Shown: one piece after another, positions 14,208 through 34,321 of the stretch
Position numbering within the stretch: position 1 is the first letter of the stretch
Layout: every line of letters begins with the position of its first letter
DNA from: a virus
Direction: 5' to 3' (one strand)
DNA: 52,226 nucleotides
Virus record (IMG/VR): IMGVR_UViG_3300028146_000004
Coordinates: 1-52,226 of that record
Notes under the pieces: model-generated
Told to the model about the DNA's origin: nothing
What the model saw: the letters and a program-made list of their open reading frames with translations, nothing else
Databases searched by the model: none
Made by a program: the position numbers and the translations under genes

Positions 14208-14283
14208 GGGGATGTAGCTCATGGAGAGCACTACCGGTAATCGCCGCCGCTTTAGTTCGCAGGTTCGATCCCTGCCATCCCCA
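14208..14283 (+). tRNA. tRNA-like element 2, aberrant
   Basis: Acceptor GGGGATG/CATCCCC and T arm GCAGG-TTCGATC-CCTGC are perfect, with discriminator A. D arm GCTC-ATGGA-GAGC has a five-base loop. The 28 bases between the D and T arms do not form a normal anticodon arm. ACTA/TAGT can pair around a 19-base loop that itself holds a mini-hairpin, CGGT-AATC-GCCG. Total length 76 nt is normal. No anticodon can be assigned. Confidence 0.5.
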
Positions 14284-14314
14284 CGTAAAGTCCATCCGTC
14301 AGGAGGGAACAGCA

Positions 14315-18236: not shown

Positions 18237-18713
18237 ATGACAACAAAGCGTGAGCACGCCAGGAAGGTACTGCTCGAGCTGGTAGTGCTTCGGAATGCGT
18301 GGCACAGCCTGTATATCGTCGGCAAGACCGATGAGGAACAGGAGTACGACATCGATCGCGACACTGAACATGGCGCGCTTGCACTCGCCAAGTTCATACA
18401 TGAGATCTTCGACGAGGGCGTCGACAAGATCAACAGTGAGATCTCCCGTGCTATACGCGAAGAGGGCAGGACACCTCACGAGATTTACACATACGCAACT
18501 ACCTGCTTGACCGAAGTAGGTAGACTTGCGGCCTACCGTATGTTCAGGATTGGTCAGCACGTAAAGGACAGGCTGCCGTTTGACGCGCTGTCCCCATGCG
18601 CGTGCGAGATCCTGTACGACGAGGACGTCGAAGCACTACTTAGCGTCCCATTCGACCTTGAAGGGGAAGGATGGGTGATCAAGAACTTCAAGTCGAAGAA
18701 GGAGGCGGAATGA
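18237..18713 (+). CDS. Hypothetical helical protein, 158 aa
   Basis: 158 residues from the ATG at 18237 behind AGGAGG; a TTG one codon earlier is too close to the site. Mostly helical, with many charged residues and a CAC triplet (SPCACEI). First gene of the replication module, with a four-base overlap into the helicase gene, so it may act with that helicase. No family recognised. Confidence 0.7.
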   Translation: MTTKREHARKVLLELVVLRNAWHSLYIVGKTDEEQEYDIDRDTEHGALALAKFIHEIFDEGVDKINSEISRAIREEGRTPHEIYTYATTCLTEVGRLAAYRMFRIGQHVKDRLPFDALSPCACEILYDEDVEALLSVPFDLEGEGWVIKNFKSKKEAE

Positions 18714-20179
18714 AACTCTATCCGTTCCAAAAGGAGCTGGTGGATCGATTCGTCGACACACCATCTGTACTGGTAGGCGACGACATGGGCCTCGGTAAGA
18801 CGTTCGAGGCTCTAGCGTTGGACCTACGACGTCGCACTACACAGCTGCCTGGACGGCAGTTGGAGTATCCGACGCTCATCGTTGCGCCCTTGTCTGTTCT
18901 GGGCGTGTGGGAGTGGCATATCAAGCAGCTATGGCCTGCCGCGAGGGTTGCGGTGATCAACCCGAAGATGCGCGGCAAGTTCATTAGGGAACTAGACTCG
19001 CAGTACCACTACTACATCATCCACTGGGAAGGGGTACGGCTAGTCGAAGAGCTTCAGAAGCGTTCGTGGTGGCACATCGTCGCCGACGAAGCTCACCGGA
19101 TGAAGAATCGGAAGGCGCAGCAAACGTGGGCGCTCAAGAAGCTTCATACCAACTACAAGACGGCACTGTCGGGCACGCCGGCAGACAACGCGCCACAAGA
19201 CCTTTGGTCGTTGTTGAACTGGTTGTACCCAAAGCGGTGGACGAGCTACTGGAGCTACGAGCGTAAGCACGTCAAGTACCAGTGGCACCAAGCAGCCTCA
19301 CAGGCCAACGGCTTCAAGTGTCCTGTGCCTAACTGCGAGGACTTCCACAAGAGTAGCTTCAAGAAGATGGTCGGCGTTGACTACGTCGACGAGCTTCATG
19401 CAGAGATTGCACCGTACTACATGAGGCGGCTGAAGGCAGAGGTGATCAGTGAGCTGCCTGAAAAGTACTACACACAGATCGAAGTGGACCTCGCGCCTAA
19501 GCAGCGCAGGATCTACGATGAGATGCGACATGACATGTTGGCTTGGATTGGGGAACACGAACACGAGCCAATTGCTGCACCCATTGTTGTGGCCCAGCTC
19601 GTCAGGCTCAAGCAGTTCGCTCTGGCGTACGCTGAGCTCGAAGAGGTGCAGGTTCGCAACAGGTCAACGGGTGAAGTACAAGCCAAGACACGCGTCAAGC
19701 TTTCGGAGCCATCTTCGAAGCTGGACGTCGTCTTGGATCAACTACAAGACAACCCTACTAGGCAGTTCGTCGTCTTTAGTGAGTCGAAGCAAGCTATCAA
19801 CCTACTTGCCGCCAGACTCACAAGGGAGAACATCAGTCACGTGGTGCTCACCGGCGATACTGCACAAGCTGATCGTGACAACGTCGTGGCGAAGTTCCAA
19901 GCTGGGAGGGCTCGCGCCTTCTTGGGCACCATACATGCGGGTGGCGAGGGAATTACTCTCACTTCAGCCGACACAGTCATCTTCCTGGATCGTACTTGGA
20001 ACCCAAGTCGAAATAGGCAGGCTGAGGATCGACTGCATCGTATCGGTCAACGGAACGCGGTACAAGTCATCGACATCGTTGCTAGAGACACAGTCGACGG
20101 AGGTCGACTTCAACAGCTCGACCTGAAGTGGTCGTGGCTGAAGGAACTGTTGGGAGATAAGGTGAAGGCAGATGCATGA
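18710..20179 (+). CDS. SNF2-family DNA helicase/translocase
   Basis: 489 residues from the ATG at 18710 (overlapping TGA of the previous gene). Walker A GDDMGLGKT (about 23-31), motif Ia IVAPLSVL, the DEAH box in VADEAHRMKN (about 125), motif III SGTPADN, and the C-terminal RecA fold with FSESKQAINLL, GGEGITLTSADTVIFLD and motif VI RQAEDRLHRIGQ. These identify an SF2 Swi2/Snf2 ATPase, which moves along duplex DNA and does not usually unwind it. A Cys/His stretch (FKCPVPNCEDFHK, about 215) may bind zinc. Such genes are common near phage recombination genes. Confidence 0.92.
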   Translation: MKLYPFQKELVDRFVDTPSVLVGDDMGLGKTFEALALDLRRRTTQLPGRQLEYPTLIVAPLSVLGVWEWHIKQLWPAARVAVINPKMRGKFIRELDSQYHYYIIHWEGVRLVEELQKRSWWHIVADEAHRMKNRKAQQTWALKKLHTNYKTALSGTPADNAPQDLWSLLNWLYPKRWTSYWSYERKHVKYQWHQAASQANGFKCPVPNCEDFHKSSFKKMVGVDYVDELHAEIAPYYMRRLKAEVISELPEKYYTQIEVDLAPKQRRIYDEMRHDMLAWIGEHEHEPIAAPIVVAQLVRLKQFALAYAELEEVQVRNRSTGEVQAKTRVKLSEPSSKLDVVLDQLQDNPTRQFVVFSESKQAINLLAARLTRENISHVVLTGDTAQADRDNVVAKFQAGRARAFLGTIHAGGEGITLTSADTVIFLDRTWNPSRNRQAEDRLHRIGQRNAVQVIDIVARDTVDGGRLQQLDLKWSWLKELLGDKVKADA

Positions 20180-24637: not shown

Positions 24638-24661
24638 CTTCTAACTGAATAGGAGGTGAGT

Positions 24662-26914
24662 ATGACAGAACCGGCCTCGCCAGAGGAACGTAGGGCGAAA
24701 CAAGATACGTTCTTCAAGATGCTGTTTGGTTTGTCGGAAGGCTTTATTTGTGTGTCCCACAAAAATGCGGCGTCTGGCAAGTGGTCGGAAGAATTCTTCA
24801 AGTATCCTGAAGAGCTGTCACGCATGCTCGATCATGTCGACAGAGTATGTCAGCAGGGCAACACATACTTCTGTCCGCAGCTCCTCAAGTCGAAGAACAG
24901 ACCTCCGGGCGCTAAGAGCGCGAGAACCAAAGACAACGTAGAGACGTGCACAGCTGTCTGGGCGGACCTAGACGGTTGTGCACCTGAGAAGTGCCTTGTG
25001 CCACCCTCGCTGACAATCGAAACGAGCCCCAAACGGTTTCAGGCCCTGTGGGTGTTGAAGGGCACATTGCCGCCAGATGAAGCGGAACAGATCAGCAAGA
25101 ACATCGCATACCACCACGTTGCTGATGGCGCAGACACAGGCGGTTGGGACCTAACACAGCTACTCAGGGTTCCTAATACGTACAACTTCAAGTACTCGAC
25201 GCCAGCAGATGTTCGTCTCATTAAGGTTCTGCGTACGGCCTACGGAGTCGAGGAATTCGATGGGTACGCAGAGTCAAGGATCAACAGCAAGACACATGAC
25301 CCGATGCCGCAAGTCCTGCCGACAGACAGCAGCTACGACGTCATGCAGAAGTACCGTAAGTCGCTCAACCCAGTATGCTTCAGCATCCACGGCACAGCAC
25401 CTGAGCCAGATGCTGACTGGAGCAAGGCGCTTTGGCAGCTTGAGATGCTGTGCTTCGAGGCTGGCATGTCGAGGGAAGAAGTGTTCGTTGTCGCGTCAGA
25501 TGCTAAGTGCAACAAGTATCGGCGCGACAACAAGCAGCCCAGGTTGCTCTGGGAAGAGGTTTGCAAGGCGTACATACTCTCAATTGAAAAGCTCAACATA
25601 CTCGTCCCGGAAACTGAAAAGCTTTCGCCACTCATCAACCAGGCAGAGCTGGACCAGATTGCAGGTCGTGATACGTTTGTCGAGCGGTACATTAGGTGGG
25701 CGAGCGGTCTTGGCGATGCAGCTCCTCAGTACCACCAAGCAGGCGCATTCATCATCCTTAGCGCCCTACTAGCTGGTACGATTCGTCTACCTACATCGTT
25801 CGGAACGATCATGCCGAACCTCTGGTTCATGATCCTAGCCGACACGACGTTGACACGTAAGTCGACGGCAATGGATGTTGCAGTGGATCTGTTGGAGGAA
25901 GTCGATCCAGACGTCCTCCTCGCCACAGACGGTTCAGTAGAAGGTCTCCTGCAGTCATTGGAGATTCGGCCTGGAAAGCCTTCGTTGTTCTTGCGAGACG
26001 AGTTCTCAGGACTTGTCGATGCAATGACAAGGAAGGACTACTATGCCGGCATGGCTGAGTCGCTAACCAAACTGTATGACGGTAAAACGACGAAGCGCGT
26101 ACTGAAGCGAGAGACGGTAACTGTTCGAGAACCTTGTCTGCTCATCTTCGGTGGAGGTATCAAGACGCGTGTACAGAGCCTACTGACGCTCGAGCATGTA
26201 GCATCAGGCTTCGTACCACGTTTCATCTTCATCACGGCTGAGTCGGATGTGACACGGCTACAGCCTCTTGGTCCGCCGACTATGGAGAACATGGACGGCA
26301 GAGACGAACTGCTGCAGGAGCTGCATGAGCTACGGAGCAGATACGTACAGGATCAAGAGATCATCGTCAAAGGCAAGCTGGTAGGCGTCAACCCATCTAG
26401 GTGGGGAGCGTTGCTAACTCCAGAAGCCTGGCAGCGTTACAACCAGCTCGAAGCAACGCTGCTGTATGCAGGCGTCAATAGTGATCAGCCAGACATTATG
26501 ACACCTGTATATGACCGTCTTGCAAAGTCCATACTCAAGGCGTCAGTGCTAATTGCGGCTACTCGAGACCAAGGCGAAGACATCATCGTCGAGCTCGAAG
26601 ACCTCCTCGTGGCGATTAAGTACGGAGAGGGTTGGAGAGCTTATGGAATGGAGATCGTCAACGGCATTGGACGTAGCGCCAACGAGATTCTACTCCAACG
26701 CATCTTCAAAACGATCAAACGTCATCCAGGCATTCCTCGTTCACAGCTGATGCAGTGGTACCATCTCGATGCAAGAAGTGCCGAGATCATATTCATGACG
26801 CTTGAGCAACGTGGATTGATCATGGCAACTAGAATGGGCCGAACATGGGTGTACGAAGCAGTAGGAAGGGTAATAGCAAGTGAGCGGAAAGAAGAAAGCG
26901 GTAGCGATCGTTAG
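24662..26914 (+). CDS. Primase-helicase (RepB-like primase plus DUF3987-type ATPase)
   Basis: 750 residues from the ATG at 24662 behind AGGAGG; a GTG two codons earlier overlaps the site itself. The N-terminal third has TAVWADLDGCAP...IETSPKRFQALWVL (about 98-135) and a later GGWDLTQLLRVPNTYNFK, typical of archaeo-eukaryotic/RepB-type primases. The middle third (about 340-560) is a DUF3987-like ATPase: NLWFMILADTTLTRKST is the P-loop in a non-standard form lacking the usual Gly residues, and PSLFLRDEFSGL is the Walker B. The C-terminus looks like a winged helix. It would prime and unwind at the fork. Codon usage is less biased than in neighbours. Confidence 0.82.
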   Translation: MTEPASPEERRAKQDTFFKMLFGLSEGFICVSHKNAASGKWSEEFFKYPEELSRMLDHVDRVCQQGNTYFCPQLLKSKNRPPGAKSARTKDNVETCTAVWADLDGCAPEKCLVPPSLTIETSPKRFQALWVLKGTLPPDEAEQISKNIAYHHVADGADTGGWDLTQLLRVPNTYNFKYSTPADVRLIKVLRTAYGVEEFDGYAESRINSKTHDPMPQVLPTDSSYDVMQKYRKSLNPVCFSIHGTAPEPDADWSKALWQLEMLCFEAGMSREEVFVVASDAKCNKYRRDNKQPRLLWEEVCKAYILSIEKLNILVPETEKLSPLINQAELDQIAGRDTFVERYIRWASGLGDAAPQYHQAGAFIILSALLAGTIRLPTSFGTIMPNLWFMILADTTLTRKSTAMDVAVDLLEEVDPDVLLATDGSVEGLLQSLEIRPGKPSLFLRDEFSGLVDAMTRKDYYAGMAESLTKLYDGKTTKRVLKRETVTVREPCLLIFGGGIKTRVQSLLTLEHVASGFVPRFIFITAESDVTRLQPLGPPTMENMDGRDELLQELHELRSRYVQDQEIIVKGKLVGVNPSRWGALLTPEAWQRYNQLEATLLYAGVNSDQPDIMTPVYDRLAKSILKASVLIAATRDQGEDIIVELEDLLVAIKYGEGWRAYGMEIVNGIGRSANEILLQRIFKTIKRHPGIPRSQLMQWYHLDARSAEIIFMTLEQRGLIMATRMGRTWVYEAVGRVIASERKEESGSDR

Positions 26915-27677
26915 TGGCGGTCTCGACTCGACGACCTTGGCCTACGATCTCCGTCATACTGGGTACGACGTCGACTTGCTGTCGTTCAACTACGGACAGC
27001 GGCACAAGAAGGAGCTGCAGTTCGCCGCGGCAATCGCCAAGCGGTTCGGCCTGCGACACGACATCATCAACCTGCAACAGCTCAGTAGCATGTTCGCCGA
27101 GAGCGGCTCGTCACTCGTCTCCGACAGCGAGGTGCCGGAGGGTCACTACGCCGAGGACAACATGAAGTCGACGGTCGTACCAAACCGCAACATGATCATG
27201 CTCTCGATCGCAACCGGCATCGCGATCTCACGTGGCGCTGCATGTATAGCAGCAGGCATGCACGCCGGCGACCACTTCATCTACCCGGACTGCCGGCCCG
27301 AGTTCATCAACATCGTCAACGCGGCCATCATGGTCGGCAATGAGGGCTTCCACAGCTTCGACGGCCTACCGATCTTCACTCCCTACATCCACTGGACGAA
27401 GGCCGACATCGCCTTCCGTGCGATGCAGCTCGGCGTGCCTTTCCACATGACGTGGAGCTGTTACAAGGGCGGCGAGAACCACTGTGGTCGTTGCGGTACC
27501 TGCGTTGAGCGGCTCGAGGCCATCTACACTGCAGGCAAGATCTTCGGAGCGCACGGCGACTTCATTCCGCCGGACAACACCGCCTACGACGACAACGAGT
27601 ACTGGAAGGTCGTCATCGCCAAGAAGAAGGCGGAAGACGACGAAGCTCCATTCGACGATCACTCTGAACTGTACTAG
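26880..27677 (+). CDS. queC: 7-cyano-7-deazaguanine (preQ0) synthase QueC
   Basis: 265 residues from a GTG start behind GGAAGG, overlapping the primase gene by 35 bases. SGGLDSTT (12-19) is the PP-loop. C194, C202, C205 and C208 in CYKGGENHCGRCGTC are the zinc ligands. The family uses ATP and ammonia to turn 7-carboxy-7-deazaguanine into preQ0. It is slightly longer than typical bacterial QueC because of an acidic C-terminal tail of about 30 residues. With QueD, QueE, FolE and a DpdA-like enzyme in the same operon, the product is most likely destined for phage DNA and not for tRNA. Confidence 0.95.
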   Translation: MSGKKKAVAIVSGGLDSTTLAYDLRHTGYDVDLLSFNYGQRHKKELQFAAAIAKRFGLRHDIINLQQLSSMFAESGSSLVSDSEVPEGHYAEDNMKSTVVPNRNMIMLSIATGIAISRGAACIAAGMHAGDHFIYPDCRPEFINIVNAAIMVGNEGFHSFDGLPIFTPYIHWTKADIAFRAMQLGVPFHMTWSCYKGGENHCGRCGTCVERLEAIYTAGKIFGAHGDFIPPDNTAYDDNEYWKVVIAKKKAEDDEAPFDDHSELY

Positions 27678-27686
27678 GAGACCAAG

Positions 27687-28010
27687 ATGCCTGAATTCGC
27701 CGAAGCGCCAACTGAGCCAATCAAGTACAACCTGCTCGTCTACGGTGGCCAGGACCGCACCGAGCCCTTGATGAGTCTCACCACGTGGGACGGTTACGAC
27801 ATCAAGGGCGACTGGATCTGCACCTACGGCAACGGCTTGATGATCTCGTTCAAGCTTCCTCCCGAGGCCGACTACATCACCATCTCGGAAATCAAGCCCG
27901 ACCCACTCACCGACCCCATCGGGAGCGTCGACGCGTTGCTCGAGACGACGCAGCCACACGACACCGCGGCTGCAGCTGCGGAGGTGATTCCAGATGAGTC
28001 AGCCGAATAA
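27687..28010 (+). CDS. Unknown protein between queC and queD, 107 aa
   Basis: 107 residues behind AGGAGACC. The first 75 residues look like a beta-sandwich (KYNLLVYGGQDRTEPLMSLTTWDGYDIKGDWICTYGNGLMISFKLP), and the rest is an acidic Ala/Thr tail. It overlaps the queD start by 17 bases. Not recognised. Its coupling to queC and queD makes it a candidate accessory factor of 7-deazaguanine metabolism. Confidence 0.7.
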   Translation: MPEFAEAPTEPIKYNLLVYGGQDRTEPLMSLTTWDGYDIKGDWICTYGNGLMISFKLPPEADYITISEIKPDPLTDPIGSVDALLETTQPHDTAAAAAEVIPDESAE

Positions 28011-28464
28011 CATCGGGACGATCTTCGTCAAGCACAATGCGGAGATCGCTCACCGACTGTCACTGCTCGAGGGCAAGTGCCAACGCATTCACGGGCACTC
28101 GTTCCACATCAAGCTGACGGTCCATGGCATCATGGATGCTCAAGGCATCTGTGCTAGCATCGACTTCGGCAGCCTCAAGAAGCTATTCCGAGGCTACATC
28201 GACTACGAGTGGGATCACCATCTCCACCTGAACGCGGACGATCCGTGGGCCCAAGCCTTCCAACTGCACGACACTATTAATGGTCACAGGCTGCCTGGAC
28301 TCATCACACACCCTGCAGATCCTACGACTGAGAACGTCGCTCGGTGGATCTGCGAGCGCATGTGGAAGGAGCTGAGCTCCTTCTCAGCTGTCAAGGCGAT
28401 CTCGATCGAGATCGAGGAGACTTCCACTAACGGGGCGAAGTGGGTGTGTGCACGTGAAGACTGA
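27994..28464 (+). CDS. queD: 6-carboxytetrahydropterin synthase QueD
   Basis: 156 residues. Zinc ligands H20, H33 and H35 (AEIAH, RIHGHSF), the catalytic Cys at 29 in EGKCQR, WDHHLHLN (about 73-80) with the catalytic Asp/His pair, and PTTENVARW with the substrate-binding Glu are all present, so the enzyme looks intact. It converts dihydroneopterin triphosphate to carboxytetrahydropterin, the second step of preQ0 synthesis. It is a little longer than bacterial QueD (around 120-140). Confidence 0.93.
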   Translation: MSQPNNIGTIFVKHNAEIAHRLSLLEGKCQRIHGHSFHIKLTVHGIMDAQGICASIDFGSLKKLFRGYIDYEWDHHLHLNADDPWAQAFQLHDTINGHRLPGLITHPADPTTENVARWICERMWKELSSFSAVKAISIEIEETSTNGAKWVCARED

Positions 28465-28633
28465 GGTGTGCAGGCCTGAGCGGCCTGTAACCATCACACT
28501 CATATTCGAGAAGGCAGTAGAAGCTCGAGACCTTCTTGAAGAGCTCAAGACGTGGAAGCCGACGCTGGGCTGGTCGCCACTCGTAGCAGACCTCTTCGAC
28601 GCGCTGAAGGAGGCAGCTGACGATGAAGGTTAG
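28448..28633 (+). CDS. Unknown small protein between queD and queE, 61 aa
   Basis: 61 residues from a GTG at 28448 (another GTG at 28454 is possible), overlapping queD and queE at both ends. Sequence such as VTITLIFEKAVEARDLLEELKTWKPTLG is strand-helix-like. No family recognised. The tight overlap suggests the three genes are translated together. Confidence 0.55.
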   Translation: MHVKTEVCRPERPVTITLIFEKAVEARDLLEELKTWKPTLGWSPLVADLFDALKEAADDEG

Positions 28634-29375
28634 CCAGATCTTCGGTCCAACCATTCAAGGCGAAGGTTCGGCGGCAGGTCGCCACTGCCTCTTCGTACGT
28701 ATGTACGACTGCAACCTTCACTGCAAGTGGTGTGACACGGCCTACACCTGGGCGAATACTTCAGGCAAGGCTGCTCTCACCATCGCCAACAAGGTCTTCG
28801 ACAAGGACGATCCCCATCTCGGCCTCAAGGAGATGTCACTCGATGACGTCCTCGGCGAACTTCACGCCCTGTGGGATTACATGAAGACACCGACCATCGT
28901 CGTCTTCTCCGGCGGCGAGCCGATGATGCAGCAGGTCGAGTTGACCGAAGTCGGTCGAGCTCTTCGCAACTGGAACAACGATGTACACGTCGAGACAGCT
29001 GGCACACTTCATCCTCGGTTTGACTTCGACTACATCGTCACGCAGTACAACGTCTCTCCCAAGCTCGCGCACAGCGGCAACCGGCCTGAGCATCGGTACA
29101 AGCCGCACGTGCTCCGAGCCTTGAGCAACACCGGCAAGGCTTGGTTCAAGTTCGTCGTCACCTCCGATACTTCGGACGACGACTTCAAGGAGATCGACTC
29201 CATCGTCAAGGAGTGCCAGATCCCAATCCATCGCGTCATGGTGATGCCTGAGGGCATTACTCAGGAGCACATCATCGACACGGGAAGGAAGATCGTCGAT
29301 CAGGCCTTGAGCCGCGGCTATGGTCTCTCCTTCCGAAGCCACATCGCCCTCTGGCCCAACGACCCCGACAAGTAG
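28623..29375 (+). CDS. queE: 7-carboxy-7-deazaguanine synthase QueE
   Basis: 250 residues. The radical-SAM cluster motif CxxxCxxC is C30, C34 and C37 (CNLHCKWC). The SAM-binding GGE motif is in FSGGEPMM (about 95-102). PTIQGEGSAAGRHCLFVR before the cluster is typical of QueE. The enzyme rearranges carboxytetrahydropterin into carboxydeazaguanine. Length and motifs are normal. It is coupled to the upstream 61-aa gene. Confidence 0.95.
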   Translation: MKVSQIFGPTIQGEGSAAGRHCLFVRMYDCNLHCKWCDTAYTWANTSGKAALTIANKVFDKDDPHLGLKEMSLDDVLGELHALWDYMKTPTIVVFSGGEPMMQQVELTEVGRALRNWNNDVHVETAGTLHPRFDFDYIVTQYNVSPKLAHSGNRPEHRYKPHVLRALSNTGKAWFKFVVTSDTSDDDFKEIDSIVKECQIPIHRVMVMPEGITQEHIIDTGRKIVDQALSRGYGLSFRSHIALWPNDPDK

Positions 29376-29380
29376 GAACC

Positions 29381-29791
29381 ATGAGACAAGATCAGGTAGC
29401 AATGCTCAACGCCGCACGCCGAGGGACAACATTCCCTTCGGTAGCATCGCAGCACAAGATGGAGTCGATCCATCCTACTCAGACGGTCCCAGACGAGGGG
29501 AAGGACAAGCCGCAAGTCGTTCCGAACCGTACGATGCGACGCCGCAGTCGCAAGAGCAAGAAGAACTGGACGTCCAACCCCTACGGCAGGGTCACTGGCT
29601 TGAAGAGTCCGCAGCCACAAGCTTCGCTCTTCACACTCGTAGCCATTCACGTTAGGGACGAAGCCGGCAAGGTCGTTCGCAAGTTCGTCGTACCACGAGA
29701 GAACGTCGACCAGGCGATGCTGGCCAAGTCTCGTTCGGAGCAGAAGGCTGACCTTAAGCCTCGAGTTCACAGAGTCAAAGGCGTAGCATGA
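29381..29791 (+). CDS. Unknown basic protein between queE and folE, 136 aa
   Basis: 136 residues starting five bases after queE, ending in an ATGA overlap with folE. The middle is very basic (NRTMRRRSRKSKKNWTSNPYGR), then comes a small beta-like core (FTLVAIHVRDEAGKVVRKFVVPRENV). The basic stretch suits DNA binding, so it could be a substrate-targeting partner of the DNA-modifying enzymes. This is inference from position and charge. Confidence 0.65.
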   Translation: MRQDQVAMLNAARRGTTFPSVASQHKMESIHPTQTVPDEGKDKPQVVPNRTMRRRSRKSKKNWTSNPYGRVTGLKSPQPQASLFTLVAIHVRDEAGKVVRKFVVPRENVDQAMLAKSRSEQKADLKPRVHRVKGVA

Positions 29792-30513
29792 GTTTCAACC
29801 ACACGCATAAGGGTGTTCCGTGTCAGAACATCTACTGCGCACTTCCGCGAGACACCGGTGTTGGATCTAACGCCGCTACCGAGAAGGAACTCGTCGAGAT
29901 GCCTCGAGCAGAGTTCGAGCGTCATGAAGGGAAGCGCATGAGCAAATTCAACGCGAGTGAGGTCGAGCTGCGCCAAGCGGCCGAGCAGGTTCTGCGAGGC
30001 ACGACCGGCTTGGACACCGACAGTGAGCACGGACGGCACACGCCAGATCGCTTCATCAAGATGTTGCGCGAGCTCACTACGCCAACTCCGATCGAGTTCA
30101 CCACGTTCAAGAACGACGGCATGGACGAGATGATCGTCGTCGAGGCCATCCCGTTCGTCTCGCTCTGCAACCATCACGTCGTTCCCTTCATCGGGAAGGC
30201 GTACATCGGCTACATCCCGGACGACCAAATCGCTGGCCTGAGCAAGTTCGCTCGGGTCGTCCATCACTTCGCTCGGCGTCTGCAAGTGCAGGAGCAGCTC
30301 ACGAAGGACATTGCGGACTTCCTGGAAGAGAACCTCAAACCTCTTGGCGTCGCAGTCGTCCTTCGTGCAGAGCACTTCTGCATGACCATCCGAGGCGTGC
30401 AGGTTCCCGGCACAAAGACGTACACGGCGGCCATGCGCGGCCGCTTCTCGGAACACGAGCGTACTGCCAAGGCCGAGTTCCTGGCCGAGATCAACGGAGG
30501 CAATCATGGCTGA
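29788..30513 (+). CDS. folE: GTP cyclohydrolase I
   Basis: 241 residues. Zinc ligands C127, H130 and C198 (LCNHH, EHFCM), with the family signature LSKFARVVHHFARRLQVQE (about 151-169) and HGRHTPDRFIKM. The enzyme converts GTP to dihydroneopterin triphosphate, the entry step to preQ0. The first 50 residues are an extension not usual in the family, with Cys at 12 and 17. An internal ATG at 29938 (behind GAAGGGAAG) would give the standard length and may be a second start. Confidence 0.93.
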   Translation: MSFNHTHKGVPCQNIYCALPRDTGVGSNAATEKELVEMPRAEFERHEGKRMSKFNASEVELRQAAEQVLRGTTGLDTDSEHGRHTPDRFIKMLRELTTPTPIEFTTFKNDGMDEMIVVEAIPFVSLCNHHVVPFIGKAYIGYIPDDQIAGLSKFARVVHHFARRLQVQEQLTKDIADFLEENLKPLGVAVVLRAEHFCMTIRGVQVPGTKTYTAAMRGRFSEHERTAKAEFLAEINGGNHG

Positions 30514-30817
30514 CGTCCCCGACGGCGAGAACATTGCTCAGACTGTCTTCGACTTGAGCAGCGAGTTCGACGTTCGCTGCGAAGAGCGCCACGCACTCGG
30601 TCAGGAGAAGTACGGCGCCGGAGCTTTCCTCATGGCCGACACGATGGAGATGGCTCTCGAAGAGATCCTCGACCTCGCCAACTACGCTCGCTACACCTAC
30701 ATCAGGGTCCGCCTCTTGCAGGAGAGCATCAGGGCCCAGGTAGCAGCGAACCAACAGCCGTCTGCACAGCAAGGCTTCATCTCGAACAAGGAAGTACACG
30801 GAGGAGGACAGAGTTGA
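30506..30817 (+). CDS. MazG-like/all-alpha pyrophosphohydrolase candidate
   Basis: 103 residues, overlapping folE by eight bases. CEERHALGQEKYGAGAFL...DTMEMALEEILDLANYARYTYIR (about 25-68) follows the R-x-G-x-EKYG ... EExxD-x3-Y pattern seen in phage all-alpha NTP pyrophosphohydrolases. Lying between folE and dpdA, it may adjust nucleotide pools, for example by removing unwanted guanine nucleotides. The family call is tentative because only the core motif is visible. Confidence 0.6.
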   Translation: MADVPDGENIAQTVFDLSSEFDVRCEERHALGQEKYGAGAFLMADTMEMALEEILDLANYARYTYIRVRLLQESIRAQVAANQQPSAQQGFISNKEVHGGGQS

Positions 30818-31569
30818 GGGCTGCACTGATTCCGCCGATGGGAGCTGAGTACTCCGCACTCAGCTCCGACATTCACCTTGTCCTGCCACTCAAGGAGTGT
30901 CGAGACAATCCCGACTACCTCGCAGCGTACCGTCACGCATGGCGTCGAGGTGACTACCTCATCCTCGACAACGGCTGCGCCGAAGGCAAGATCGTCGACA
31001 ATCGAGTACTAATCCAATTCGCGAGAACGATTAACGCTCACGAGGTCGTAGCGCCTGATGTGATGGGCGACGGACCTCTTACACTTCGTCGTACGGTCGA
31101 GTTCGTTCGGTACGTACCCGAAGCTCGTAACTACTCGATCATGGGTGTTCTTCAAGGTGAGAACATCCAACAAGTCCTACGACTCGCTGAGGCATTTGCT
31201 CAGCTACCCACCATCACTGCAGTTGGCATTCCGAAGATTCTCGTGTCAACAATTGACCATGAGGTACGCGCTCGCGTAGCAGCGAACATCCTCAAGGTCT
31301 ACGGCAACCGCTTCGAGATCCACCTGCTCGGTCTCAATAGAGACTTCCAGACAGAAATGCTGGACGTTACGTTCCCTCCTGAGATCCGATCGATGGACTC
31401 AGCGCAACCGTACAAGTTCACCGAAGCTGGCATCGCCATGACGGCCGTCAACGTAACAGGCCGTGGCGAGCTAACAAGGCGTCGGCACGACTACTTCAAA
31501 GCGCCACGCAAGTACGACGCCGGCCTACTAGCTTCGAACATCGAGACGTTTATGAGTTGGTGCCGATGA
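30814..31569 (+). CDS. dpdA: DpdA-like DNA 7-deazaguanine transglycosylase
   Basis: 251 residues from a TTG start that overlaps the upstream stop (TTGA), behind GGAGGAGG. The order of motifs follows tRNA-guanine transglycosylase: LDNG (51-54) in place of the base-binding DSGG, APD (80-82), GVLQG (111-115, compare GIVQGG), GIPK, HLLGL (170-174) and SMDSAQP (193-199), which carries the likely nucleophilic Asp. The protein is short for a tRNA enzyme and lacks an evident zinc site, as known for phage DpdA. It would swap guanine in DNA for preQ0 made by the upstream enzymes. Substrate is inferred from family and neighbours. Confidence 0.85.
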   Translation: MRAALIPPMGAEYSALSSDIHLVLPLKECRDNPDYLAAYRHAWRRGDYLILDNGCAEGKIVDNRVLIQFARTINAHEVVAPDVMGDGPLTLRRTVEFVRYVPEARNYSIMGVLQGENIQQVLRLAEAFAQLPTITAVGIPKILVSTIDHEVRARVAANILKVYGNRFEIHLLGLNRDFQTEMLDVTFPPEIRSMDSAQPYKFTEAGIAMTAVNVTGRGELTRRRHDYFKAPRKYDAGLLASNIETFMSWCR

Positions 31570-33971
31570 AGGCTGAAGCGTCCGGCGCTGACTGTCAGCA
31601 CTGCCCGCTGCGAGACGCCGGGTATGCCCCAACCAAACGCCCACAGGGAGGGCGGCCTCTTTCCAATGGCGAACGAAAGATAGTAATCGTTGGAGAAGCT
31701 CCAGGGTTCGTTGAGACGCAATTCGGTTCGCCCTTCTCGGGACCCTCAGGCAAGCTCCTCAACACCGTACTCAAGTACCAAGGCATCGAACGCAAGGAAG
31801 TGATGCTGACCAATGCATGCCTATGTAGGCCTCCGGATAACGCTACTCCTCCTAAAGCGGCGGTGGTTGCGTGTAAGACTCGTCTCGCGAACGAGATCCG
31901 ACAATTCGCAGGCGATGACGCAGTCGACGTTATTGCTCTTGGCGGGACCGCGGGAACGCTACTGGTGGACGATCCGGGGACAATTACCACGCTACGTGTC
32001 GGTCCTCCAAGGAAGCCCGCCGCGTGGCTTGCGCGTAGCTGGGGAGATGCTTCTGTACAACCTGATGTGCGAGTTATCCCTACCTGGCACCCCGCGTACT
32101 GTCTCCGTAACGCTGACGCGTTCCCGTCCCTCGTTAGCGACATTGGTAAGGTAAGGGAGACCAGCCGTGAGCCTTGGCGTGAACCTGAGTGGAGAATATT
32201 TGACGATCCGGATCGAGCGGTTGCCGTCATCGCTGAGCTGGAGCGAATTGAAGGCCCTCTCGTCATCGACATTGAAGTCGGTTTTGACAAGGACGAGGCC
32301 TTCGACCATCCGAACAACTATTCTCTTCTCTGCGTGGGAATTGCTTTTGCAAGAGGACAGGCAGTGGTTCTGGGTGAGCGTGCACTTGCCGACGACGACG
32401 TGGTCGATGGACTGCGGCGACTCCTACGAAGCCACCGACTCATCGGACACAACGGCAAGTTTGACCTTGCCGGACTTTGGCCAAAGCTCGGAAGCCTCGA
32501 ACTCTGGTTCGACACCATGCTCGCCAGCTATGTCCTCGATGAGCGGCCTGGCCAGCACGGTCTTAAAGTTCTTGCCGTCGAGAAACTAGGAGCTCCGAAG
32601 TACGATGAGGAAATTCGAAAGTACGTGCCTCGCCGAGGAAATTATGGAGATATTCCTCGGCCAATCCTCTACCGGTATAACGCGTACGACGTTGCATGCA
32701 CATGGGAGTTGTACGAGCTGTTCACTGAAAGCATGCATCGACAAGGGCTCCGGGGAGTCCATGACTTTTTGGTCAAAGCAGCCAACCAGCTCATGTACCT
32801 CGAGCTCAATGGGATTGCAATTGACAGAGAGTATATGCGCCGACTCGAGTCCGAATACCTCGAACGGCTCAACGAGATCGAGGTGGAACTGGACCAGATT
32901 GTTAAGGAGTCGACAGGTCATCTAGACGACGGTCCAATGCAGCACATCAACCCGCGTTCACCGGCGCAGGTGAAACTCTACCTGGAGACACAAGGTGTTA
33001 ACGTTCAGTCTACGAACCAGGAAACACTCGAGTTCCTGCTCGAGCGACTGCCTAAGGGGAGTGCCAAACAGCGTTTTGTATCAGTTCTTCTTCGGTACAG
33101 ACGCCAACACAAGCTCTACAGTACATACATCGTTGGAATCCGCAAACGGCTTTACCGCGGACGTATTTACACTACTTACCTTCTCCACGGAACGACAAGC
33201 GGCCGACTGGCAAGTCGGAATCCGAATCTGCAGAACATTGTTCGTGATAAGGAGATCCGACGGCAGTTTGGTGTCACACACCCTGACCACGTACTGATCC
33301 AGTGCGACTACAAACAGGCCGAGGCTCGCGTCATGGCTACGCTCTCTCAGGATGAATACCTAAGAGAGATCCTAAGCCGTAACGAGGAGGGCTACGACTT
33401 CTTCAACGAGCTATCCGATCAGCTATACGGAGTTGGTCAATGGGGTAAAGAGGAGCGCATCAGGACGAAGGCGTTCTTCTACGGCATCGGCTACGGCCGA
33501 GAAGCGTACTCGATCGGGCTCGAGTACGGCCTTGACCCTCGTGAAGCGCAACGACGATACGACGAGTTCGTCGGGCTCATCCCGAACGTTGTCAAATGGC
33601 AAGAGGCTATACGTAGCCAAGTTCTGAGGGGAGAACCTCTTGTCTCACCCTTCGGACGACGCAGACGGTTCTGGCTCATCACCGACCAGAACAAAAAAGA
33701 TGTCCTTAACGAAGCGTTGTCCTATCTGCCGCAATCAACTGCAAGTGACATCTGCCTATCCGCTCTTATTCGCGTGCGACCCTTGCTACGTGGTTTGGGT
33801 TTCCTTCGACTCACAATTCACGATGCTCTCGTTGTTGAGTGTCATGGAGACCGTACCGAGGAAGTGGGACAGCTACTTAGTACGACCATGGCAGCCGAAG
33901 GTCGACACTTTACCGACTATGTTCCTTTCCCAGTAGACATCAGCATCGGCAAGAGTTGGGGAGATCTGTGA
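31566..33971 (+). CDS. Uracil-DNA glycosylase-DNA polymerase I fusion
   Basis: 801 residues from the ATG at 31566 (ATGA overlap with dpdA). Residues 1 to about 200 match family-4 uracil-DNA glycosylase: C10/C13 plus two later Cys for a 4Fe-4S cluster, GEAPGFVETQFGSPFSG, and TWHPAYCLRN. Next comes a 3'-5' exonuclease (LVIDIEVGFDKD, LIGHNGKFDL, YNAYDVACTW). The family-A polymerase follows: motif A QCDYKQAEARVM, motif B RIRTKAFFYGIGYG, and motif C IHDALVVE, where the usual HDE reads HDA. It replicates the phage genome; the glycosylase part may detect uracil in the template. A related N-terminal fusion is known in SPO1-type phages. Confidence 0.93.
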   Translation: MKAEASGADCQHCPLRDAGYAPTKRPQGGRPLSNGERKIVIVGEAPGFVETQFGSPFSGPSGKLLNTVLKYQGIERKEVMLTNACLCRPPDNATPPKAAVVACKTRLANEIRQFAGDDAVDVIALGGTAGTLLVDDPGTITTLRVGPPRKPAAWLARSWGDASVQPDVRVIPTWHPAYCLRNADAFPSLVSDIGKVRETSREPWREPEWRIFDDPDRAVAVIAELERIEGPLVIDIEVGFDKDEAFDHPNNYSLLCVGIAFARGQAVVLGERALADDDVVDGLRRLLRSHRLIGHNGKFDLAGLWPKLGSLELWFDTMLASYVLDERPGQHGLKVLAVEKLGAPKYDEEIRKYVPRRGNYGDIPRPILYRYNAYDVACTWELYELFTESMHRQGLRGVHDFLVKAANQLMYLELNGIAIDREYMRRLESEYLERLNEIEVELDQIVKESTGHLDDGPMQHINPRSPAQVKLYLETQGVNVQSTNQETLEFLLERLPKGSAKQRFVSVLLRYRRQHKLYSTYIVGIRKRLYRGRIYTTYLLHGTTSGRLASRNPNLQNIVRDKEIRRQFGVTHPDHVLIQCDYKQAEARVMATLSQDEYLREILSRNEEGYDFFNELSDQLYGVGQWGKEERIRTKAFFYGIGYGREAYSIGLEYGLDPREAQRRYDEFVGLIPNVVKWQEAIRSQVLRGEPLVSPFGRRRRFWLITDQNKKDVLNEALSYLPQSTASDICLSALIRVRPLLRGLGFLRLTIHDALVVECHGDRTEEVGQLLSTTMAAEGRHFTDYVPFPVDISIGKSWGDL

Positions 33972-34321
33972 GCTACTCAGCGCAAGTTGACTATTGGTTC
34001 GATGAGACTCAGCTCGCCATTGGTAAGTGGTCTCGACACAACTTTCCCAGCTCCGACATCGTCATGTCCACGTTGGGCATCGCTGAAGAAGTCGGCGAAC
34101 TCTGTCGGGCAGTGCTCAAGCGTGCTCAAGCCGTCCGTGGAACTCGTGCTGAGTGGACTATCGAGATGCGCAAGGAGATGGGTGATGTTCTCATCAAGCT
34201 GTTCCAGATCGCTGACCTAGAAGATGTCGACCTGCTTGACATCTTCCGACGTCGTTGGAGCGAAGTACAGCAACGCGACTTCCAGAAGGATCAGATCGGA
34301 CACGGACTACCTAAGGAGTGA
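33968..34321 (+). CDS. MazG-like nucleotide pyrophosphohydrolase
   Basis: 117 residues from a GTG overlapping the polymerase stop. STLGIAEEVGELCRAVLKRAQ...EWTIEMRKEMGDVLIKLFQIADL (about 38-88) has the EExxE and E-x2-D metal-binding motifs of MazG-type enzymes, which hydrolyse NTPs or dNTPs to monophosphates. Directly coupled to the polymerase, it probably shapes the dNTP pool during replication. Confidence 0.82.
   Translation: MSYSAQVDYWFDETQLAIGKWSRHNFPSSDIVMSTLGIAEEVGELCRAVLKRAQAVRGTRAEWTIEMRKEMGDVLIKLFQIADLEDVDLLDIFRRRWSEVQQRDFQKDQIGHGLPKE

Follow-up and report, generated by a model that had tools for sequence, protein, structure and literature searches.

Does an uncultured phage that carries genes for preQ0 synthesis beside its DNA polymerase place this base in its own DNA? 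The question is raised by virus record IMGVR_UViG_3300028146_000004, whose 52,226 nt form the window, that is, the whole stretch of DNA analysed here. We put at roughly 85% the probability that the phage makes preQ0 from GTP with an operon of its own and substitutes it for guanine in its DNA. The kind of system is already known; its base-swapping enzyme is here a compact one. No near DNA relatives were found among sequenced phages, and a search for the host through prophage copies gave a single distant match, in a WWE3 MAG, which assigns no host.

A preQ0 operon beside the DNA polymerase

Five genes (queC, queD, queE, folE and the 251-aa ORF) are open on the plus strand, in a cassette at 26880-31569 flanked by a primase upstream and a UDG-PolA polymerase downstream (Table 1), and their coordinates agree with a preliminary description made from the sequence alone. 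That description had read the cassette as a single overlapping operon adjoining the DNA polymerase; most gene junctions indeed overlap, the one between dpdA and polA included. It had passed over four small ORFs inside the operon, of 107, 61, 136 and 103 aa.

Table 1. Features of the operon and its borders in the window, with overlaps at junctions from the primase to polA
Feature	Position	Strand	Overlap with next feature (end/start)	Matches and occurrence
Primase-type gene	24656..26914	+	26914/26880	phrog_10514 2e-81; in 37 loci; conserved upstream border of cassette
queC, 7-cyano-7-deazaguanine (preQ0) synthase	26880..27677	+		PF06508 6e-61; TIGR00364 190 bits (cutoff 150)
107-aa ORF, no assigned function	27687..28010	+	28010/27994	no family match; homologues in 7 loci (window counted; nearest relatives only)
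queD, 6-carboxytetrahydropterin synthase	27994..28464	+	28464/28448	PF01242 8.5e-23; phrog_2389 1.6e-29
61-aa ORF, no assigned function, poorly conserved	28448..28633	+	28633/28623	homologues in 5 loci (window counted)
queE, 7-carboxy-7-deazaguanine synthase (radical SAM)	28623..29375	+		phrog_2076 1.4e-52
136-aa ORF, no assigned function	29381..29791	+	29791/29788	homologues in 9 loci (window counted; near relatives only)
folE, GTP cyclohydrolase I	29788..30513	+	30513/30506	PF01227 4e-56
103-aa conserved companion, no assigned function	30506..30817	+	30817/30814	38 loci; directly upstream of dpdA
dpdA-like, compact guanine transglycosylase	30814..31569	+	31569/31557	predicted TGT fold; candidate catalytic D52, D195; H170
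UDG-like domain + 3'-5' exonuclease + family A DNA polymerase fusion (polA)	31557..33971	+		PF03167 1.6e-23; PF01612 2.8e-12; PF00476 1.5e-61
MazG nucleotide pyrophosphohydrolase	33968..34321	+		PF03819 1.5e-7; phrog_229

Motif retention was judged from alignments with relatives and with solved enzymes. QueC, which has 265 aa and no Gat domain, aligns with the QueC structures 2pg3 and 3bl5 and keeps SGGLDS and four cysteines, while QueD aligns with the QueD structures 4ntk/4ntm and keeps GKCQRIHGH and DHH. QueE aligns with 5tgs QueE and keeps CNLHCKWC (CxxxCxxC), and FolE aligns with GTP cyclohydrolase 1 (4uqf) at 9.5e-40 and keeps CNHH and HFC. Strong family matches and these alignments bear out the earlier claim that FolE, QueD, QueE and QueC retain their catalytic and metal ligands. 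Additionally, when the other predicted ORFs of the window were scanned with Pfam, no QueF, amidotransferase or ArcS-like gene came up, in agreement with the preliminary description, which had recognised no QueF or amidotransferase-like tailoring enzyme. Neither QueA nor QueG was found in the window, and Pfam detected no nucleotide kinase gene elsewhere in it. A reading of FolE as QueF was ruled out, as QueF scores fall far below the cutoff and the FolE match is full-length.

Many small genes of this phage have no known function. That the 107-, 61- and 136-aa ORFs have a conserved role is unsupported, as each occurs in few loci and none has a homologue in Bacillus phage BSP7. The alignment of the 103-aa protein contains the invariant residues R28, G32, Y36, G37, E53, D56, N59 and Y60, and its model predicts two long helices (pLDDT 82) that match no fold and no enzyme family; database matches were scattered single weak Pfam hits and a weak PDB hit, 2p06 (E 0.2). 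A role as a MazG-type pyrophosphatase, considered for its ExxDxxNY motif, is unsupported by hhalign (probability 0.2%) and by fold search.

The 251-aa transglycosylase and its compact subfamily

The 251-aa gene starts with TTG, preceded by a GGAGGAGG Shine-Dalgarno sequence, and its product is nearly undetectable with sequence libraries. It scores 16.1 bits against the NCBIfam DpdA model NF041059 (cutoff 200), which we counted against a DpdA reading, and hhalign against four DpdA1 proteins gives weak matches (33-50% probability) in which the catalytic motifs line up. Its AlphaFold model (pLDDT 96, pTM 0.92) has a predicted TGT-type TIM-barrel fold, and Foldseek ranks TGTs first among its PDB matches (E from 3.9e-7 to 6e-6, probability 1.00). 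Additionally, a search with the family profile found 7ui4, a DNA-guanine transglycosylase of solved structure, at 5.5e-5, the HLLG and S-x-D-S motifs lining up, and found no tRNA TGT sequence. The fold and profile matches together place the protein, by sequence and modelled structure, within the DpdA/TGT superfamily; it is not DpdA2-like, a reading ruled out by the presence of the conserved His and the lack of a profile match. The preliminary description had itself named a grouping outside this superfamily as a result that would speak against its DpdA assignment. Superfamily membership thus stands, but the enzyme is not an ordinary phage DpdA: its subfamily is compact and distant, and the CP220 type is part of it.

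The motifs LDNG, GVLQG, HLLGL and SMDS pointed out earlier are all present. Columns invariant across a 62-sequence alignment are D52, N53, E57, D82, T90, H170, G173 and D195. D52 and D195, in DSG- and late S-x-D-S-type motifs, align with DpdA1 D72/D215 and are candidate catalytic residues, and H170 aligns with 9g H196. The CxCxxC...H zinc site, a feature of tRNA TGTs, is absent from the 251-aa protein and from the conserved columns of its family, which we likewise counted against a DpdA reading.

One scan found relatives of the locus at 117 sites in viral contigs, many with the same gene order, and chance is therefore excluded; a scan of viral contigs with the single BSP7 protein returned no relatives. 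The order primase-queC-queD-queE-folE-X-dpdA-polA is shared with BSP7 (MH707430), Weizmannia phage Youna2 (OM293949) and dozens of environmental contigs. The BSP7 and Youna2 operons also have small genes between folE and dpdA but carry a nucleotide kinase in place of the 103-aa gene, and their transglycosylase, in BSP7 a homologue with 31% identity over the core, is annotated merely as a hypothetical protein.

A tblastn chain leads from the window to BSP7 and on to CP220, immuto and phiST, and HMM and tree agree with it. The best viral fold match of the 251-aa protein is phiST (E 1.9e-15), and the homologue in immuto is annotated as a DNA guanine transglycosylase. By alignment, tree and modelled fold, the compact subfamily is common to the window enzyme, BSP7, Flavobacterium phage immuto, Cellulophaga phage phiST and Campylobacter phages CP220/CPt10. 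The enzymes of the last four phages are about 19-21% identical to that of the window and come from other phage types and hosts; queC was not found near dpdA in the examined stretches of CP220, immuto and phiST, whereas the window has it, and immuto has a QueF, which the window lacks. These four transglycosylases are probably the subfamily that Cui et al. in 2023 reportedly named DpdA3 and linked to full replacement. In the literature searched, we came across no published assay of an enzyme from the compact subfamily.

A probable route from preQ0 to modified DNA

The gene content is that of group 2 of Hutinet et al., with FolE, QueD, QueE, QueC and a DpdA-type transglycosylase and with no ArcS, QueF-L/QueF or Gat-QueC. 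In Rosebush and CAjan the minimal set FolE-QueD-QueE-QueC-DpdA gives dPreQ0, and inactivation of CAjan dpdA abolishes dPreQ0 and restores restriction (PMC6884629). Strong homology suggests that in the window FolE would convert GTP to 7,8-dihydroneopterin triphosphate, from which QueD would make 6-carboxytetrahydropterin, QueE 7-carboxy-7-deazaguanine and QueC preQ0. By analogy with DpdA, the 251-aa enzyme would then put preQ0 in the place of guanine; the most likely substrate is DNA, while PolA replicates it or afterwards, and the modification would give resistance to host restriction. Because no QueF, Gat, amidotransferase or ArcS-like gene was recognised, preQ0 would be the simplest base and dPreQ0 the simplest product, although dADG is possible. 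In CP220 and CPt10, dADG replaces 100% of dG (PMC8306585). As the window enzyme groups with theirs, replacement may be near complete, for which we see about even odds, rather than the roughly 30% of Rosebush and CAjan. We infer all four of these properties: modified phage DNA, the identity of the base, the extent of replacement and protection against restriction.

An unrecognised protein, such as the product of the 103-aa companion gene or of some other small ORF, could convert dPreQ0 to another base such as dADG, and the number of small phage genes without known function makes such a tailoring enzyme possible. CP220 and CPt10 carry dADG, not dPreQ0, and in 38 loci the conserved 103-aa gene immediately precedes dpdA, while 80 DpdA1-type control loci lack it. 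However, many members of the compact family do without this gene, the two predicted helices of its product gave no fold or enzyme-family match, and its small size makes an amidohydrolase unlikely; we consider tailoring doubtful. Very improbable is a role in which the cassette raises host tRNA queuosine to aid translation and leaves the DNA unmodified. PreQ0 is a queuosine precursor, and such a role has been suggested for phages that have preQ0 genes without DpdA (PMC6884629), but here the transglycosylase profile matches 7ui4 and no tRNA TGT, in 72 of 78 loci its gene has the polymerase nearby, the DNA of CP220-type relatives is modified, and no QueF, QueA or QueG was found in the window.

Modified DNA could also arise if the compact transglycosylase acted on free dGMP, or another dG nucleotide, instead of on DNA. 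MazG would turn dGTP into dGMP, the modified dNTP would be rebuilt by a kinase of the phage or its host, and PolA would incorporate it, with complete replacement. The MazG and nucleotide kinase genes in or near the cassettes of relatives make such incorporation possible in place of base exchange. MazG is near dpdA in 33 of 78 compact-subfamily loci (2 of 80 DpdA1-type loci) and PolA in 72 (9 of 80), counts that are not independent because the loci are related by descent. MazG in relatives usually sits between folE and dpdA, and in the window directly after polA; a nucleotide kinase adjoins in BSP7, Youna2, CP220, immuto and two further loci (L060, L066) and is fused to MazG in two others (L071, L088). 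For Campylobacter phages, at a time when no DpdA was known in them, a route through modified dGTP was put forward (PMC6884629), and a MazG-type (d)GTPase feeds base replacement in Z-genome phages (PMC8342488). On the other side, MazG and kinases are frequent in phages for other reasons, the nearest relatives of full length (L020, L021, L024, L028) yielded no MazG, and the window has no kinase gene by Pfam, so that a host kinase would be needed. To our knowledge, assayed TGT/DpdA enzymes all act on nucleic acid, which also counts against this route. We judge it unlikely, and slightly more so in the fuller form in which the compact enzyme swaps the guanine of dGMP for preQ0, MazG makes the dGMP, a kinase rebuilds the triphosphate for complete replacement by PolA, and the 103-aa protein is part of the route. 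Exchange of guanine for preQ0, most likely in DNA, is the reading we prefer.

Known systems and implications

Rosebush and CAjan, the 'second group' of Hutinet et al. 2019 (PMC6884629), resemble the window in combining the four preQ0 enzymes with a DpdA/TGT-superfamily enzyme and no recognised tailoring enzyme, with dPreQ0 as the predicted product. The window differs in its compact (251 aa), distant transglycosylase with barely detectable similarity to DpdA1, in its gene order, conserved 103-aa companion and adjoining UDG-PolA polymerase, and possibly in complete replacement, not about 30%. DpdA2 of Vibrio phage nt-1 is likewise a phage TGT-superfamily enzyme beside preQ0 genes, but it has 464 aa and lacks the conserved His (H170 in the window), and profile comparison of the two gave no real alignment. 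The Z-genome cluster (PurZ, MazZ, DatZ, PolA) shares the link between a MazG-type pyrophosphatase and base-replacement genes in PolA phages; the likeness is one of gene content, as base and enzymes differ and the window has no PurZ or DatZ.

With these 117 related loci from one scan, widespread environmental siphoviruses join the phages predicted to carry 7-deazaguanine DNA. Hypothetical proteins of cultured phages such as BSP7 and Youna2 are tied to this predicted function, which opens the prediction to tests in Bacillus subtilis. The finding also bears on whether CP220-type phages, in replacing every guanine, act on finished DNA or go by way of a modified dNTP; concrete candidates here are the linked genes for MazG, the kinase, PolA and the 103-aa protein.

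Operon layout and predicted preQ0 synthesis

All genes of the operon lie on the plus strand, with overlaps at nearly all junctions of the ORF coordinates, in the order queC, 107-aa ORF, queD, 61-aa ORF, queE, 136-aa ORF, folE, 103-aa ORF and the 251-aa, dpdA-like ORF, which begins at a TTG codon with a strong Shine-Dalgarno sequence ahead. Pfam, PHROGs and NCBIfam agree on QueC, QueD, QueE and FolE, and all four retain their functional motifs when aligned to phage relatives and to enzymes of solved structure. Homology confirms, beyond reasonable doubt, the complete preQ0 enzyme set proposed in the preliminary description, and from their sequences the enzymes are probably active.

The window carries siphovirus genes for portal, terminase, major head, tape measure, tail and endolysin, and its near relatives span 52-55 kb. 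It looks like a near-complete siphovirus, and probably ends inside the head-gene block as a circularly permuted genome would.

Features of the window and of loci carrying relatives of the 251-aa transglycosylase
Feature	Position	Remarks
tRNA-like gene (one)	14208-14284	Anticodon loop aatc; ARAGORN, without a definite identity call
DNA helicase	18710-20179	DarB-like antirestriction and methyltransferase families are among the weaker PHROG hits
Operon	26880-31569	
Primase-type gene		Upstream border of operon
103-aa gene	30506-30817 (+)	
251-aa transglycosylase	30814-31569 (+)	
UDG-like domain, exonuclease and family A DNA polymerase, one fusion	31557-33971	Downstream of operon; N-terminal uracil-DNA-glycosylase-like domain, residues 39-187, GEAPG and HP motifs retained; BSP7 polymerase alignable from residue 8 on
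MazG		Next gene after UDG-polymerase fusion
MazG domain fused to thymidylate-kinase-like P-loop kinase	L071:4391-5362; L088:4252-5304	Phages carry the same transglycosylase family
Tandem transglycosylase gene pair in a single phage	L054:8007-9484; L094:7017-8846	

A compact transglycosylase of the TGT/DpdA superfamily

Among PDB structures, the predicted 251-aa model (pLDDT 96, pTM 0.92) most closely matches tRNA-guanine transglycosylases in fold (E 3.9e-7, TM about 0.57), and its family profile matches the DNA-guanine transglycosylase 7ui4 at 5.5e-5; the protein therefore belongs to the TGT/DpdA superfamily, and this structural comparison bears out the earlier proposal of a DpdA-like transglycosylase. 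The best viral fold match is phiST (1.9e-15). The protein scores 16 bits against NCBIfam DpdA (cutoff 200), matched nothing in the PDB as a single-sequence query, and lacks the tRNA-TGT zinc motif. A DpdA2-like (nt-1-type) identity was ruled out: the protein retains the conserved His that DpdA2 lacks, and profile comparison with DpdA2 gave no match.

Searching by tblastn led to Bacillus phage BSP7 and its kin, with identical operon order (primase-queC-queD-queE-folE-X-polA). The BSP7 protein in turn matched Weizmannia phage Youna2, Campylobacter phages CP220/CPt10, Flavobacterium phage immuto (homologue annotated as DNA guanine transglycosylase), Cellulophaga phage phiST and Brevundimonas phages, and an alignment-based scan of viral contigs recovered 117 relatives. 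D52, N53, E57, D82, T90, H170, G173 and D195 are invariant in a 62-sequence alignment, and follow the order of the DpdA1 (9g-type) motifs DSGAF, LDxIGD, HGxGIT and SxDSS. In the tree the protein falls within a supported group of 11 inside a larger clade of 32, all from environmental phages, with deeper branches unsure. As a refinement, the transglycosylase is of the compact CP220/BSP7 type, and the operon that encodes it is conserved and includes additional companion genes.

Conserved companions

QueC, QueD, QueE, FolE and PolA are regular neighbours across the family. Compared with 80 DpdA1-type loci, the 78 family loci more often had PolA (72 versus 9), the 103-aa gene (35 versus 0) and MazG (33 versus 2) near dpdA, counts biased by search profiles trained on the family itself and by common ancestry of loci. 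MazG mostly lies between folE and dpdA; none was found in the window's closest full-length relatives, by a Pfam model that misses some divergent copies. The 103-aa gene is directly upstream of dpdA in 38 loci. Its product has invariant R28, G32, Y36, G37, E53, D56, N59 and Y60, including an ExxDxxNY motif, and two long predicted helices; fold and family searches matched no known fold or family. A nucleotide kinase adjoins the transglycosylase in BSP7, Youna2, CP220, immuto and two viral loci (L060, L066); a Pfam scan recognized none in the window.

Probable product and mechanism, and possible extent of replacement

A Pfam scan of the remaining window ORFs found no tailoring genes (QueF, Gat, ArcS or other), in agreement with the absence of QueF and amidotransferase-like genes noted previously. 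In L058, L061, L079, L084, L093 and L094, QueF-like genes precede the family's transglycosylase gene by a few kb, which suggests that these members use preQ1 or another base.

The operon itself is confirmed, and its interpretation as a guanine-replacement system is supported. The best-supported mechanism has the base exchanged within DNA, where preQ0 would be the substrate of a TGT-type covalent reaction. Because nucleotide-metabolism genes are linked to the transglycosylase, we keep alive the alternative that exchange or assembly takes place on nucleotides, with PolA then incorporating the product.

In phages with the same minimal gene set, dPreQ0 replaces about 28-32% of G (PMC6884629), and CP220 and CPt10 carry dADG in place of 100% of dG (PMC8306585). 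Hutinet et al. assigned such Campylobacter phages to the group lacking DpdA, mentioning for them a route through modified dGTP (PMC6884629). CP220 and CPt10 encode members of the window's compact transglycosylase family. Cui et al. 2023 reportedly named a DpdA3 subfamily tied to complete replacement, a name we take as a lead only. What makes this system of interest is the chance to test how complete guanine replacement comes about.
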